From: a virus
Virus record (IMG/VR): IMGVR_UViG_3300044699_000072
Span: 1 to 42,526 of that record
Direction: 5' to 3' (one strand)
DNA length: 42,526 nucleotides
Under the pieces are notes generated by a model that was not told where the DNA came from, ran no database searches, and saw nothing but the letters and a program-made list of their open reading frames with translations. Both the position numbers and the translations under genes were made by a program. Below are positions 6,838 to 42,526 of this stretch, piece by piece; position 1 is the stretch's first letter; every line of letters starts with the position of its first letter.

Positions 6838-7209
6838 CTACTCGTTCTGCATCCGTCCCTCGTACTCACGATTCTTCACGTAGACCATGAGCTTCTTGCC
6901 GATGGGGAAGTTCGGATCAATCTCCGCACCTTCCTTCTCGACCTTCTGTCCGCACGCCTCGACGAAGGGAACTGCGAATCCCATCGCCTTCTCGTTGAAC
7001 AGCCTGTAGACGATGACGCCCTGAAGCTCCTTGCCGTCCTTGTTCTTTCCGGCAAGAATCTCCAGCTTGTAGTTCCAGTTCGTCGAGCCGTCGCCCTTGG
7101 AAGGCTTGACCTCGACCGACTTGACGACGACTGGATACCAGTTCGGGTCAAGGATGATCCCACGCTTGAGATCATCGGCGGTGATTCGCATCTTCTGGCC
7201 TTGTGCCAT
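6838..7209 (-). CDS. DUF669-like phage protein, probable ssDNA-binding/recombination accessory
   Basis: The 123-residue protein has a beta-rich middle (YPVVVKSVEVKPSKGDG, NWNYKLEILAG, LQGVIVYRLFN) and a final conserved-looking stretch KKLMVYVKNREYEGRMQNE. The last codons suggest a one-base loss: the next frame reads on as VADFRPIG and a stop, giving NREYEGRMQNEVADFRP, the usual type of ending for DUF669-like proteins. Those proteins often sit next to Sak4-type recombinases, as here. ssDNA binding is inferred from context only. The start follows CTAGGAGAGTGTT. Confidence 0.5.
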   Translation of the reverse strand: MAQGQKMRITADDLKRGIILDPNWYPVVVKSVEVKPSKGDGSTNWNYKLEILAGKNKDGKELQGVIVYRLFNEKAMGFAVPFVEACGQKVEKEGAEIDPNFPIGKKLMVYVKNREYEGRMQNE

Positions 7210-7229
7210 AACACTCTCCTAGATTGGTA

Positions 7230-7263
7230 AGTCAGGGTTGATCAGTCAGGTTAGTTAGTCAGG
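7230..7263 (-). repeat. Three CCTGACT repeats in a leader
   Basis: AGTCAGG (CCTGACT on the coding strand) occurs at 7230, 7244 and 7257, spaced 14 and 13 bases, upstream of the DUF669-like gene. No function is evident. Confidence 0.4.
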
Positions 7264-7276
7264 TCACTCTCCTTGG

Positions 7277-8160
7277 TTAGCCGAAATTCTCTGGAACCTC
7301 TATCGCGTTGTTGGTCGCGTGATAGAGTCCAATCTGCTCTCGAATGATGGGCAGGAGCAGTCCATGCCTGCGAGCAAAGTGAGGATTCACGTTGCCTGCA
7401 TCATCCTTCGGGTAAGCAGTAAAGTCGATTTCATCTGCAATCGGAAGAGCCGTCTTAGCCCAGTCGTCCCAACGTTGCGCGTGATGATTCGATACTGCGG
7501 TCTGCCGGTCGGTCCGACTGCGGTATCGAAGTGGTAAGCCTCGTCAAAGTAGGCAGGAATCTCCGCGACTGTCTTCTTCGCTCCGCTATTAACCAGCGTC
7601 CTCGAGTAGGAGATGTTACCCTCTCGGCTCTTGTTCGTCACATCGAGAACGTGGGCCGTCATGATGACGTGACACTTCGTTCCGTTTCCTGAGATGACCC
7701 TCAAAGCGTCGACCACCTGGTTGATGCCGTTGGCTTCGCCGGAGTAGTCTTCGATTTGCGTGAGCGCGACGCCGCCTCTCTTCAGCTTTTGCTTCCCGGC
7801 TTCGCCGCGAGCAATAAGCATGAGCGAGATGAGCATACGCGACAATGCAGTGAGCGAGTCCATGCACAATCCAGCGTAGGGATTGTATGAAATTAGTCCA
7901 TCGAGTTTGTTGCACAGCTCGCCCCAGCAGGTCTCACCTGTGTATGTGTCAAACTTGATGTGGTCCCGATACTTCCTCAATTCGGGGTGATTGAAGTGGT
8001 AAGACCAGAGGACGAATCCGCTGGTCTAAGTCAAAGAAGTAAATGTCTTCAGTCCCTTCCGAGAAGGAAGCGGCTGCGATAGTCTTTCCAGTCCCAGGGT
8101 CGCCTTTGAAAATCGCAGTCAATTTATCCCCGATAGCAATGCGTCAAGTCCGCTTGCCAT
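7277..8160 (-). CDS. Sak4-like RecA-type ATPase (frameshifted)
   Basis: Three frames join into one protein of about 290 residues. The start MASGLDALLSG at 8160 leads after an indel into IFKGDPGTGKT (Walker A, about 8110-8085) and DIYFFDLDQRIRPL. The intact middle frame, 7387-7980, has the Walker B-like strand GLCMDSLTAL and CHVIMTAHVLD. After another indel near 7470 the end reads DWAKTALPIADEIDFTAYP and stops at 7277-7279. This is the layout of phage Sak4 single-strand-annealing ATPases (AAA_24), which promote phage recombination. An HNH gene overlaps its start. A defence-unrelated replication role is most likely. Confidence 0.75.
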
Positions 8161-8584
8161 TTTTGTCCTTCCTTTTAAGCATATTAACGCACTCTCTACA
8201 TGAACGATGACCGTATCTTACGATCAGATTGCTACCTGAGTAGGCATGACCTCTAGGACAATGCGTCTTTGCAGCCTGATCCTTAGCTCTTTGCCATCCA
8301 GTCGTTCTTCCCTTTTTTGCTGCGTCTCTTGCATTTTGTCCGCGAGTGCCTTCCCACAAATGCTTTGGCTCAATACAATTGGGAGTGTCACAAGCATGAC
8401 AACACTCGTAACCCTCTCGTATTGGACGACCTAGCTTTTCTTCCAATACAAGACGTGTTAATTTCTGAGACCGACCATCACGCCATACAATTGGATATCC
8501 CGCCTCATTTAGAGACTTTGTTACCAGCTTGCAAGGCGTGGTGGTCACTAGGAACCCCCTCGACTCTGGAAGTTCGAGCCCCAC
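8144..8584 (-). CDS. HNH endonuclease
   Basis: The 146-residue protein has the HNH core CCHACDTPNCIEPKHLW followed by N-x-x-D and KKGR, the pattern of free-standing phage homing endonucleases. The C-terminal CPRGHAYSGSNL and RSCRECVN form a second Cys-containing DNA-binding module. It is wedged between a small coiled-coil gene and the Sak4-like gene and overlaps both, as an invading homing gene would. Its start is uncertain, because the first 15 residues share bases with the upstream gene. Lower GC content than its neighbours is visible by eye. Confidence 0.85.
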   Translation of the reverse strand: MGLELPESRGFLVTTTPCKLVTKSLNEAGYPIVWRDGRSQKLTRLVLEEKLGRPIREGYECCHACDTPNCIEPKHLWEGTRGQNARDAAKKGRTTGWQRAKDQAAKTHCPRGHAYSGSNLIVRYGHRSCRECVNMLKRKDKNGKRT

Positions 8585-8742
8585 GGACGATACGCATTGT
8601 CTGTGGCGCGCTCCAATGCGATGATCTTGCTTTCGAGAACCTCGACCTTCTCGATAAGTTTCTTGACCAGATCGAGGATAGCTTGATCATTCTTCATGCT
8701 ACCCTCGCTGACCTCCTTGATTGCTTGCGCTACTGGGTCCAT
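8548..8742 (-). CDS. Small coiled-coil protein
   Basis: The 64-residue product is mostly one amphipathic helix with a heptad pattern (DLVKKLIEKVEVLESKIIALERA), so it is probably a coiled-coil oligomer. The tail is short and polar. It starts 9 bases after the stop of the zinc-ribbon gene. No function can be assigned. Confidence 0.65.
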   Translation of the reverse strand: MDPVAQAIKEVSEGSMKNDQAILDLVKKLIEKVEVLESKIIALERATDNAYRPWGSNFQSRGGS

Positions 8743-8751
8743 CCTAGCTCC

Positions 8752-9039
8752 CTATGGCATGACGGTCGGAATGTTCAACGGTGGAAGTGTGAAGGTCTCT
8801 TCCTCCTTCTTCCTCTTCGTGCAGGACTTGCAATGGGGCTTCGCGAGAATACCGTTGCTGTCACGGTAGATAAGCGTCACCTTCTCGCAAACCCAGCAGA
8901 TAGTCTTCTTGCCTACGATCCTGTCCTCGAACAGATAATGTGTGCAATCTGGAAGCGCGCACTCGTAGACACGACGACTATACGGACCCTTCCCTAGCCT
9001 CCCTCTCTTATACTTGTGGACGTGTTTGAAGCTCGGCAT
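8752..9039 (-). CDS. Zinc-ribbon protein
   Basis: The 95-residue basic protein has Cys at YECALPDCTH, then ICWVCEK and HCKSCTKRKK, which give two likely zinc sites. The N-terminus is rich in Lys, Arg and His. A nucleic-acid-binding role is likely, and phage transcription or recombination factors often look like this, but no family was recognised. It lies directly after the PD-(D/E)XK nuclease gene. Confidence 0.7.
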   Translation of the reverse strand: MPSFKHVHKYKRGRLGKGPYSRRVYECALPDCTHYLFEDRIVGKKTICWVCEKVTLIYRDSNGILAKPHCKSCTKRKKEEETFTLPPLNIPTVMP

Positions 9040-38643: not shown

Positions 38644-39503
38644 CAAAATCGGCAAGGCCAACGAACACCTCACCATATTCATACCGTCCTGGACATTGAT
38701 CAAGCGATGCGGCGGACCGCGGCGACTCTGTTCGTCGCGACACCGACCAACCATTCCCCTGAACTCAATCCGGTGGAATCGGACCACAAAGATATTTGAA
38801 AGAGTGGGACGGCACGACCTGGATTGCACAAGTTATCGAATTCCGGGTGTGGGACAGGAGCTGCTCTGCCTGGAGGATATCGCGTCAAGCCTGGGTTTGG
38901 CACGATGTGTCTGTCCAAAACGCCAATTGCTGTTGCTATCACAGGAGGAAGTGCGTCGGCGCTCAATCTGGCAAATTGCACGCACTCTGGAACATTCACG
39001 GCTAACGCTACACCTGGGCATTGGGACCCTGAGTGTCTTAGGTAATGGAAGCTGGACTGCACAATTCTTTGCACCCAGCTGGATTCAAAACGGCACGCCT
39101 CATATATGGCAATGATGGTGTTACAGTGCAAGTCATGCACGCTGTGAGCTCTGTTGTTGGCTTCATGGTTTACGGCAACATGCAGGCTCGTTTTCCAAAT
39201 CGCATGGGCTATCCCGGCGGGCGTCGATTTGTGGTGCAACATTCTAAATGGCGAAGTCTCCTGGTTCACTTTGGGTAGTAGGAGCGTCGCTCAGGTATGT
39301 TTCTGAGACATGGCAAGGAAGTGGTCTATCCAGGGAGATATGTTAAGGACCTCCCTCACCCTTATCTGTTCCTGGTTTCCCTTTGGATTCAAGGTAATAA
39401 TATCTTTTCGTAAATCAGGCAGGTAGTACGTCCTTAAAGTGCCACATAATTGGACTGGTGGATATCCTGCTGGCGTTAACAAAGGTATAGCTCAATTTGG
39501 GTA
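38641..39503 (+). CDS. Tail-region protein with Trp-rich motif (frameshifted)
   Basis: The first ATG at 38641 opens MAKSARPTNTSPYSYRPG. Later frames give KEWDGTTWIAQVIEFRVWD, RRISRQAWVWHD, KPGFGTMCLSKTPIAVAITGG and SALNLANCTHSGTFTANATPG, and end in NWTGGYPAGVNKGIAQFG at 39503. The WDGTTW phrase is common in phage tail and fibre proteins. It is the gene before the His-x-Asp protein. Exact function not known. Confidence 0.4.
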
Positions 39504-39545
39504 GAAGGAGAATTTCTCCGCTGGCTCGAAGCAACGGGCGGGGAA

Positions 39546-40117
39546 ATGTGGTGTCATCAAGACCAGCATGGTGACGCTATTGCGCATATAGATACAGCTC
39601 ACGTAGACTCTCACTCAGATAGTCATAACGATACTGCGGACATGGTGATACTCATAACGACGTAGCTCACAGCGATACATCTCATAGTGATTCACATACT
39701 AATACGGCTCATAGTGATTCACCATGGAGACGTGGAACATACAGACGGTCAACACACTGAATTACCACTTGACACTGGTATATCTCATTATGATGGAGCG
39801 GCCACTCCGACACTCCCATCAAGACTATCACACTGACGTTGAACATTACGACGGACATACAGATACACATAACGCATGGCTATGTAGCGCACATAGACAG
39901 GCCCGCACACATAGTGACTCACACGGAGATTCAGCGCACGTTGACTCACACAAAGCGATTAGAGCACACGTAGATAAAGCTCATAGTATACTCAATACCG
40001 ACTCGGCTCATGGTGACTCTCACTCAGACGTAGCACATCAAGACGTCGCTCACGGCGATCACAACGATTGCAACAACTGGTGGGCATGTTGACAACCCGA
40101 CATTGATTGGAACATAG
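39546..40117 (+). CDS. His-x-Asp repeat protein, candidate maturase substrate (frameshifted)
   Basis: Four frames join into about 190 residues packed with His-x-Asp: HGDAIAHIDTAHVDSHSD, then HGDTHNDVAHSDTSHSDSH, HHGDVEHTDGQ, HSHQDYHTDVEHYDGH, HSDSHGDSAHVDSH, and HGDSHSDVAHQDVAHGDHND (40.0-40.07 kb), about 30 copies in all. The end reads GGHVDNPTLIGT and stops at 40115-40117, touching the maturase ATG. The upstream open frame begins near 39486, so the true start may be earlier than the ATG at 39546. The pattern is like the His-Xaa-Ser substrates of radical SAM systems, but with Asp. Metal-binding fibre tip is the alternative. No other domain is visible. Confidence 0.6.
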
Positions 40118-41280
40118 ATGACTGTTGAATATCTCCCCGTCGGTATTGCGTGTAACCTGAAGTGCGAGTATTGCTATCAGGACTCAATGCGCGATGCTGG
40201 CAATATCAATACTCCTCGGAATTGGTACGAGGTCGAAAGCCCAGATGAGAATGGGTCAGCCCTTTACTGTCTTGGTGGAGAACTCTGCTTGCGCCTATTG
40301 ATCATCTTCATGAAGTCTGGCCTTCGGCCTCAGTCGTTTTGGTAGTAACGGTATTCAGACGAATGGTGTCTTGATTACTGACGAACATATTGCAATGTTT
40401 GAGAAATACAACGTAGGAGTAGGCATCTCCATCGATTGGTCCGGGTGGCTTAACGAGCGCGCGTCAAAGACAATGAGGAAACAGAGAAGACTTTGCTTGC
40501 TATCAGAAAACATTTGCGAGGCAGGTCGCGCACCATCACTCATCGTGACGATTCATAACAAGAACGGGACGAGAGTCCCAGAGCTTCTTGATTGGTTTCT
40601 AGCTCTTAGAGGTCAAGGAGTCCAGTATTTGAACCTCCACAATCTAGAGGTTGAGAAAGGCATGCCCAATCTTACCATCCCTGAGGAGAGGAGATTCAGG
40701 CTTTTTCAGCATCTATGAATGGTCCAAAGGTTCAGGCATGTATGTCGAGCCTTTACTGATATCGTGAAACTCCTTACGGAGGAAGACCCACAGGTAAATT
40801 GCACTTGGAATCATTGCGACCCAATGACAACCAATGCTGTACAGGGAATCAATCCTGATGGGTCGCGCTCCACATTGCGGTAGACTAATAAGGATGGTAT
40901 CAATTGGGTAAAGTCTGACCAGCCTGGTTTTCGAGAGATACCTTATTCTGCATCAAACTCCTCAAGAATTTGGAGGGTGTCAGGGTTGAAAATACTTTGC
41001 ACATTGCAAAGGACAATGTCCCGGCACAGCCATTGATGGTGATTGGCGTAATAAGACCATCCATTGCAAGCTCTGGTATTCACTTTTTTCGCACATCGAG
41101 AATGACCTTCGTGCATCGCGGGACAACGAATTCTCATTCCGACAATAAAGAGGCCAAGCCGCTCGCAACGTGGCGTGGAAATCACGGTGACTCCCAACAT
41201 GGCGATACTCCGCATGGTGACAGTCATGGGGACCATACAGATTACGGAATTCGTGCTACATTTTCTAGAGAAGGCTCCAG
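40118..41280 (+). CDS. Radical SAM/SPASM maturase with C-terminal His-Gly-Asp tail (frameshifted)
   Basis: The start MTVEYLPVGIACNLKCEYCYQ at 40118 abuts the repeat gene. CNLKCEYC is the CX3CX2C cluster loop, and LGGE (40.28 kb) the S-adenosyl-methionine strand. The frame 40371-40718 has VGVGISIDWSGWLNERAS, SLIVTIHNKNG and VQYLNLHNLEVEKG, typical of SPASM enzymes. After VNCTWNHCDP and GINPDGSRS, one frame at 40.96-41.08 kb reads EFGGCQG, CKGQCPGTAIDGDW and KTIHCKLWY, the SPASM auxiliary-cluster cysteines. A tail follows with NHGDSQHGDTPHGDSHGDH. It would modify a peptide by radical chemistry; the His-x-Asp protein is the obvious candidate. End is set by the next likely start. Confidence 0.75.
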
Positions 41281-42526
41281 ATGCAACGACTTAATGTATC
41301 AATTCCAGAGTTTACTCGTACTGCTTGGGTGTCAGAGTCAGCTCGACAGGCTTGGGTAGTTATAAGATAGCTGCGATTAACTCAGCTGGTTCGAGATAGA
41401 ACGAAGCTCTGTCGCTATGGGAGTACGACCTGGTGGGCTTACAGAGCATCGAGCCTGATAATCTGGTCCGCTTCCAACAATGGTGCGCGGATCAATCGTT
41501 GGGTATGGTCATCGTCGGACAGGAAGGGGTATCGCCAGTCTATGGTAATGCCGCAGTTCCTGTCACGCCTGGCAAGGCATGGACGTATCGAGTCTACTTT
41601 GGTAAAGACCCGGTAGGTTTTTGCTAATGCTTGGGGGAAGGACGAACTAGAGATTGGGAAAGCTCTTGGCTATCCACCTTGCTGCTCTATCTTCTTTAAC
41701 TGGAACTGGAAGCAACAGGGATTGGCGCGACCTAGTCTACCCATGATGCAAGGTCAGGATTAGGATAACTGGACCGCATACTTTAGCACATTCTTTTGAG
41801 GCAATATTGGAGTGCGCGCCACATTTCATCTACCTTGTTCTTTCCGATTGCCCACTTTCGGATATGACACAGCTAAGCGTATCCTGGCGCACGGATCGAA
41901 GCAACAGGATTTGCGGAGGAGATGCTTTGGATTGAGGAGATGCTTAATTGGCCTATTCGATGGTCCTCCTTGCATGGGGTGACTATTGTAACGACGCCGA
42001 TTATGAAATCGTTTCCTCTTCAGACGCTCTTTCTACAGCTGTAGTCTATGATAGAGAAGGTCCCAGTCTATCCAGACGAAGGTGCAACTGGGGTCGATTT
42101 TCCGTTTCGTATGGTGAGCCAATGGCTCTCAAGGGAATCGAAGATACCTGGACGGATAATGGATTCTCAAGTCTCTTTGCCATGCGCCACTCGCATGACT
42201 CGATTCTCAATGCGATTGGTCCAATTCCTCTTGGCAAGGAAGGGTCTTGGATTTGGGTTGTGGAAATGGAGCGCAATCAAGCGAATTCAAGGAAGTGACC
42301 CTGACATCAAACCAATGGGTGTAGAGATTGACGAAGCCAAGTGTAGTAAAGCCTCGCTCTTGGGCTTTGATATCTTTGGTCTGATATCGTGCGCACTGAT
42401 TCCTACTTGTGCTGACATACCTCATGTTATCTGGTCTCTATCAATCGACTCATGGAGCTAAATGCTACGCTCTTTCTCAGTAAGCTCAGCAAGCATACAA
42501 GTTCCTAGTCGTCTATGGGTATCAGG
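41281..42526 (+). CDS. GYPPCC-domain and class I methyltransferase protein, partial (frameshifted, runs off the window)
   Basis: The start MQRLNVSIPEFTRTAWVSES at 41281 opens a new protein; segments of it lie in three frames. Next come QSIEPDNLVRFQQWC and VTPGKAWTYRVYFGK, then GKALGYPPCCSIFFNWNWK (41.66-41.71 kb), VRATFHLPCSF, EEMLWIEEMLNWPIRWSSLHG, MRHSHDSILNAIGPIPLGKEG and, at 42.24 kb, VLDLGCGNGA followed by KPMGVEIDEAKC. The last two are motif I and the acidic strand of a class I S-adenosyl-methionine methyltransferase. The CC-containing domain is not recognised for certain. It ends at the window edge, so it is incomplete. Confidence 0.6.

Follow-up and report, generated by a model that had tools for sequence, protein, structure and literature searches.

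A radical SAM/SPASM module of tailed viruses that may crosslink His-x-Asp repeats in tail fibres

Many tailed bacterial viruses, and an archaeal one in a provirus-like region, carry a module in which a protein rich in His-x-Asp (H-x-D) motifs is coupled with a radical SAM/SPASM maturase. The best explanation, which we hold with moderate confidence, is that this virus-encoded maturase puts many His-Asp/Asn crosslinks on tail fibres. The module is described here from a 42,526-base virus record, analysed over its whole length (hereafter, the window), together with its relatives. A radical SAM module was known before in the Thermus phages Cumys and phiMa: the accessible text of PMC11437467 reports its three genes, one of them of unknown function, as functionally linked and present in prophages too, and no mention of H-x-D repeats was found in that part of the account. 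The proposed substrate, its chemistry and the range of the module, far wider than in the same accessible text, are new here.

The cassette in the window

The three genes lie on the + strand and are the last three of the record, 3′ of genes that match a relative's contig by tblastn; the terminase-, portal- and capsid-like labels of the upstream window genes were given from position and sequence alone. The features are the following:

38700 to 39247, + strand: upstream fibre-like gene (start approximate, frame broken; assigned by eye)
39248 to 40117, + strand: H-x-D repeat protein, the proposed substrate (frame broken; relatives in L003, L006 and L062)
40118 to 41280 (end approximate), + strand: radical SAM/SPASM maturase (frame broken; intact relatives)
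near 40151-40174, + strand: CX3CX2C of the maturase, with two SPASM Cys groups further on
41189 to 41272, + strand: H-x-D tail at the maturase C-terminus (HGDSQHGDTPHGDSHGDHTDYG)
41281 to 42526, + strand: fusion of a DUF483-like domain with a class I methyltransferase (broken frame, truncated where the contig stops)
42238 to 42300, + strand: methyltransferase motif VLDLGCGNG

The repeat gene begins at 39248 (MAKSPGSLWVVG), upstream of position 39546, where the first-pass annotation had started the cassette. Its product comprises an N-terminal triple GSxWxEG-like domain, then about 30 H-x-D motifs and finally the C-terminus HVDNPTLIGT. The number of about 30 motifs, already proposed in that annotation, is real: within 39540-40117 the word CAYNNNGAY occurs 30 times on the + strand and never on the opposite one; in 300 dinucleotide shuffles its count averaged 2.9 and did not exceed 8, and its median over 578-nt stretches of the window is 0. 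The stop codon of this gene (40115-40117) directly abuts the maturase ATG at 40118, as had also been noticed, and in the intact relatives stop and ATG likewise overlap or abut. In searches with the relatives' proteins (tblastn), the enzyme spans 40118-41272, and the third gene starts at 41281 and extends past 42443, the module of the window remaining colinear with these proteins though its frame keeps changing. A blastn search against phage records gave no match. Most of the frame breaks lie beyond ~34 kb, and elsewhere ORFs as long as 1223 and 828 aa are intact; such clustering over the final ~8 kb suggests that reads were left uncorrected where the contig ends.

The end of the upstream gene shows a feature of its own. 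In the relatives, the gene preceding the repeat protein often ends in [IV]PVGx[DN]x[WY] (L062, 7658-7951; L003, 6439-7065; L041, 8660-10252; L057, 4406-5155), and the IPAGVDLW-type end of the upstream gene in the window (~39150-39247) matches the [IV]PVGxDxW end of these relatives.

Coupling of the repeat protein and the enzyme

An alignment-based scan yielded 43 loci in viruses and 11 in bacteria, and two of those in bacteria are weak matches. In the stretch around the locus, an H-x-D/N-rich ORF was present in 42 of the 43 maturase-bearing viral loci, usually adjacent to the enzyme, and the exception (L031) is an 8 kb fragment. A DUF483-like gene accompanies the viral maturase wherever the contig continues (43 contigs). 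In the case of phage phiLo, no repeat protein adjoins the maturase, and three of them lie at 4-10 kb, after baseplate wedge genes; these adjacent genes (phiLo_135 to phiLo_137; MH673673.1, 141511-147367), annotated as hypothetical, encode about 58, 104 and 75 H-x-D/N motifs.

Two reverse searches made no use of enzyme sequence. The first one employed a DNA pattern of four H-x-D motifs at period five, which matched at least 120 stretches; among the matches listed, 38 ORFs passed a filter of motif number, x diversity and spacing diversity, and one of them (L079) was dropped by eye as a low-complexity DDLGHDD-type frame. The enzyme, counted when it lay within the stretch, elsewhere in the record (G001, G005) or at another locus of the same record (L159, L023), was present in 33 of the 37 contigs with an irregular repeat ORF among the matches listed, and it is lacking from the simple codon repeats whose match included no maturase sequence, again among the matches listed. 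Four contigs of this set have no enzyme: in L145 the ORF continues past the contig end, and L084, L113 and L135 are probable fragments of the G005 phage type, which would lack the enzyme purely through fragmentation. In G005, the maturase has other H-x-D proteins next to it, and a collagen-like H-x-D fibre is encoded 51 kb away. The second search, carried out with the GSxWxEG domain, found 33 loci, 30 of them with the enzyme and the remaining three cut by contig ends.

As to the early concern that the genes might prove to be separated, or that the repeat protein might occur without the radical SAM gene, adjacency is kept in the intact relatives, and neither reverse search found an irregular repeat protein without the enzyme on a clearly complete stretch. 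Repeat and enzyme are coupled, a statement that we make with high confidence, and it is very probable that the enzyme modifies the repeat.

Tail setting of the module

Several H-x-D proteins match known tail components. The one in L033 is homologous to the central tail fibre J (phrog_31, 2.7e-47) and to other fibres (phrog_5616, 6.2e-57), those in L046 and L127 match tail-fibre profiles (phrog_7809, 1.8e-6, and phrog_863, 1.4e-4, respectively), and in L006 an upstream gene hits the profile 'tail protein and host specificity'. Baseplate genes lie upstream of the module in Cumys, phiLo and L223, the Cumys module following baseplate and collar-fibre genes, and in G005 the repeats are joined to collagen-like fibres. 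In the case of the GSxW-type repeat protein of the window, no profile match was obtained, and the link to the tail is its position beside tail genes. The initial proposal of a virus-borne repeat substrate and a SPASM maturase that belong together in the tail-gene region is supported, whereas the product looks less like the peptide envisaged then than like a structural protein modified at dozens of positions. The repeats mostly occupy the C-terminal part of the substrates. The phage substrate ORFs span roughly 170-1480 aa, and small substrates occur only in the Chthonomonas-type copies.

A C-terminus of the HxDxPx[LYF][IV]G type is found, in a loose form, in 41 of 68 substrate ORFs (positions 40085-40117 in the window), and is possibly an anchor or recognition end.

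Constraints on the repeat motif

The motif was analysed in 63 non-redundant repeat regions (12,363 residues) picked for H-x-D/N. His is followed by D/N at +2 in 2161 of 2233 cases (97%), versus 6% at +3 and +4, a +2 level that is partly by construction because of the way in which the regions were picked. Tyr and Phe played no part in this choice, and D/N occurs at +2 of Tyr in 44% and of Phe in 48% of the cases, versus about 21-23% at other offsets, an excess for which the bootstrap of the difference excludes zero. Leu, Ile and Val are depleted at the aromatic slot, with D/N avoided at their +2, and Trp shows no preference.

Substitutions were followed in 25 pairs of related repeat proteins, some of them overlapping. 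The motif His is changed at 3% of sites, and 31 of the 56 changes lead to Y, W or F, although part of the H-to-Y signal may be mutational, since this is a one-base change. The third residue (X3) is changed at 11% of sites, and 169 of its 197 changes (86%) are exchanges between Asp and Asn. The middle residue (X2) and the spacers are changed at 35% and 31%, respectively, and synonymous change is similar across all classes. The motif H and D/N are under selection while x drifts, and the consensus site reads [H>>Y,F]-x-[D>>N].

The maturase and its partner

The enzyme of L003 matches the radical SAM profile PF04055 with 64.7 bits (cut-off 29.5), and in the window the profile matches positions 40139-40225, under the cut-off where the frame breaks. 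The CX3CX2C and the SPASM cysteines read at first pass are both present, the latter in the layout Cx(9-15)Gx4C ... Cx2Cx5Cx3C ... C and invariant among the relatives: the L003 cysteines C234/C254, C288/291/297/301 and C317 have invariant equivalents across 55 sequences. Comparison with NCBIfam gave many weak matches, the top models including AmcB, DynA, anSME and YhhB, of which AmcB and YhhB form cyclophanes, and none of the matches comes near its cut-off. The named cyclophane families (AmcB, YhhB, XyeB, GrrM/OscB and FxsB) reach at best about 86 bits, against cut-offs of 310-450. The AlphaFold model of the maturase (pLDDT 87.9), made without the rows of annotated phage records, has anSME and ChlB (9gm3, TM 0.65) as its closest folds, anSME being also the best PDB sequence match (5.8e-24). 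Membership of the anSME family was rejected, at 75 bits versus a family cut-off of 349.

The maturases themselves bear the motif of the substrate. An H-x-D motif occurs in the C-terminal tail of 51 of 56 maturases and in none of the bacterial ones, with 242 motifs in the tails versus 33 within the first 330 residues. No docking of this tail is seen, because the model leaves it disordered (pLDDT below 50), and self-modification, tethering or inhibition are possible roles for it.

The third protein had been described as a methyltransferase, and a class I domain is indeed there, but only as the C-terminal half; the N-terminal half is DUF483-like, both in the window and in the relatives. The methyltransferase half is absent from the third gene of the Thermus phages and of the Chthonomonas-type copies, so that methylation, which had been entertained as the product, is at most accessory. 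The PF04467 (DUF483) profile gives 23.9 and 22.0 bits for a gathering score of 25, the Cumys counterpart is a DUF483-domain protein according to its published record, and the DUF483-like protein shows invariant Cys. The model made for the fold of the DUF483-like half is confident, and the PDB hits listed for it are methyltransferases. The enzyme is accompanied almost constantly by the DUF483-like protein.

Proposed mechanism and its alternatives

The most likely pathway would start with a radical SAM/SPASM enzyme acting repeatedly on the consensus triplets that tail-fibre or baseplate-associated proteins carry in their C-terminal part. The enzyme would most likely take a hydrogen from the C-beta of Asp/Asn, and this carbon would then be bonded to the aromatic ring two residues earlier, in the case of His presumably at C2, by analogy. 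Tens of small cyclophane rings, each costing 2 H, would result, and these may make a fibre that is otherwise extended stiffer and better protected. A near-constant accessory in this pathway would be the DUF483-like protein, whereas the fused methyltransferase would carry out an optional later step. An i,i+2 cyclophane is the best reading of the product, and we consider it fairly probable; the wider claim that bacterial and archaeal tailed viruses encode cyclophane synthases, which staple fibres with tens of His-Asp/Asn C-C rings, we put at slightly better than even. No phage-tail cyclophanes were found in the literature searched, a coverage that leaves most subscription journals outside.

Links of this kind are known from small peptides. 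In the accessible text of PMC11002830, the i,i+2 links run to the C-beta of a third residue, which may be Asn or Asp among others, and start at His C2, Tyr C3, Phe C4 or Trp. HaaB bonds the C2 of His to the i+2 C-beta, YxdB the C3 of Tyr to the C-beta of Asp, and OscB the C7 of Trp to the C-beta of Asn/Asp; the His-to-Asp/Asn pair of the phage module is not among the triceptide pairs in that text. The triceptide enzymes (XncB, OscB, MscB, YxdB, HaaB, YhhB) are similar in that a radical SAM/SPASM protein stands beside an aromatic-x-X3 substrate of the i,i+2 type. However, they act on small precursor peptides, whereas the phage module is viral, deals with tail fibres or large proteins of roughly 10-100 sites, keeps a DUF483-like partner and has an enzyme that bears the substrate motif; moreover, known triceptides use Trp, whereas the phage repeats show no Trp enrichment at the aromatic slot. 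ChlB, a multiple cyclophane synthase according to the title of Ruel et al. 2025 as cited in the accessible part of PMC12636437, is alike in the predicted fold. In the case of anSME, the likeness in sequence and fold goes with a different substrate motif and, unlike the anSME setting, no sulfatase was seen nearby. The His-Xaa-Ser systems (HxsA-D), to which the first-pass annotation had linked the cassette, share a radical SAM enzyme and a His-x-(polar) repeat substrate, but differ from the module, whose X3 is Asp/Asn and whose enzyme is single. Membership was rejected, since HxsA (TIGR03979) had no match at E<=1 in 9 records, and HxsB (TIGR03978) and HxsC (TIGR03977) reached at best 48.6 of 370 and 35.5 of 267.9 bits.

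Another chemistry on the same H-x-D sites, either C-N or ether crosslinks, Asp beta-oxidation/hydroxylation or epimerisation, finished by the DUF483-like protein and the methyltransferase, is the rival that survives best, though we regard it as unlikely. An oxidase, anSME, accounts for the fold of the maturase as well as ChlB does, DynA, one of the top profiles, has a C-N-linked product, and the constancy of the DUF483-like partner with its invariant Cys would fit a finishing step; nevertheless, the strict i,i+2 spacing from aromatic to Asx, the D/N exchange and the replacement of His by Tyr or Phe fit ring closure at C-beta better.

The tip of T4 gp37 binds iron through H-x-H motifs. Since both His and Asp can ligate metals and fibre ends are where the repeats lie, the H-x-D repeats could form a metal-binding trimeric needle while the enzyme acts on another target, but this would leave unexplained the near-perfect co-occurrence with the maturase, even in G005, where the two are unlinked. 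A link to C-beta predicts the D/N tolerance and the aromatic replacement, whereas metal binding does not obviously do so, and the needle appears improbable. Still less probable is the modification of DNA or another nucleic acid, as proposed for Cumys/phiMa in the accessible text of PMC11437467, according to which homologues in some cyanobacteria neighbour genes for deazapurine DNA modification. Against this, the tail module ends with the repeat protein, which is the constant third partner, the SPASM layout is that of peptide maturases, and nearly all phage copies bear the H-x-D tail.

If fibres are indeed crosslinked by the maturase, virion proteins would receive RiPP-type radical chemistry at dozens of sites per chain, and an enzymatically crosslinked viral structural polymer would be a new use of triceptide-type chemistry. 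It would also offer a new explanation for fibre stability, as a widely distributed feature of viruses, and enzymes, some of them from phages of thermophiles, that process large substrates repeatedly. Finally, the rSAM/DUF483 module of the cultured Thermus phages would become directly testable.

Distribution of the module

Six contigs with the same gene order emerged when the first 75 enzyme residues were used as the query; in those of the six that were read, the genes are intact with one exception, L002, whose enzyme has a break. The repeat genes of three relatives map to 7066-8001 (L003), 7114-8001 (L006) and 7961-8992 (L062). A search of viruses for the same gene triple, recommended at first pass, found intact copies in dozens of viral contigs and in Thermus phages; among the cultured ones, Cumys, phiMa and phiLo carry the module (tblastn), and the product of Cumys_13 has 54 H-x-D motifs. 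A sequencing artefact, to which the broken frames throughout the last ~8 kb of the window might point, is refuted as the origin of the cassette by these intact copies, which keep the same order in independent metagenomes and cultured phages, and can be given practically no weight.

Haloarchaeal viruses or proviruses also carry the module, since a Halomicrococcus plasmid has it in order: baseplate J, a protein with GSxW plus [HY]-x-D, the enzyme and the DUF483-like gene. On a Halorussus plasmid (L222, 6001-8206), the enzyme and a DUF483-like gene are present and no repeat protein was found nearby; a pattern scan of the whole plasmid gave no repeats either, and the same scan also missed the known repeats of L223. 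The Chengkuizengella locus looks like a prophage. In the Chthonomonas/Armatimonadetes loci (L052, 12161-12502; L054; L055), a short H-x-D peptide after a signal-like sequence adjoins the maturase and DUF483-like genes, a set that is possibly a cellular RiPP-like cluster.

Two further arrangements were observed. L042 (6001-8913) contains a tandem pair of maturases, and a 104.9 kb phage contig (L189, 7495-11909) has several collagen-like and H-x-D/N proteins beside the maturase, with another fibre of this kind 51 kb off.
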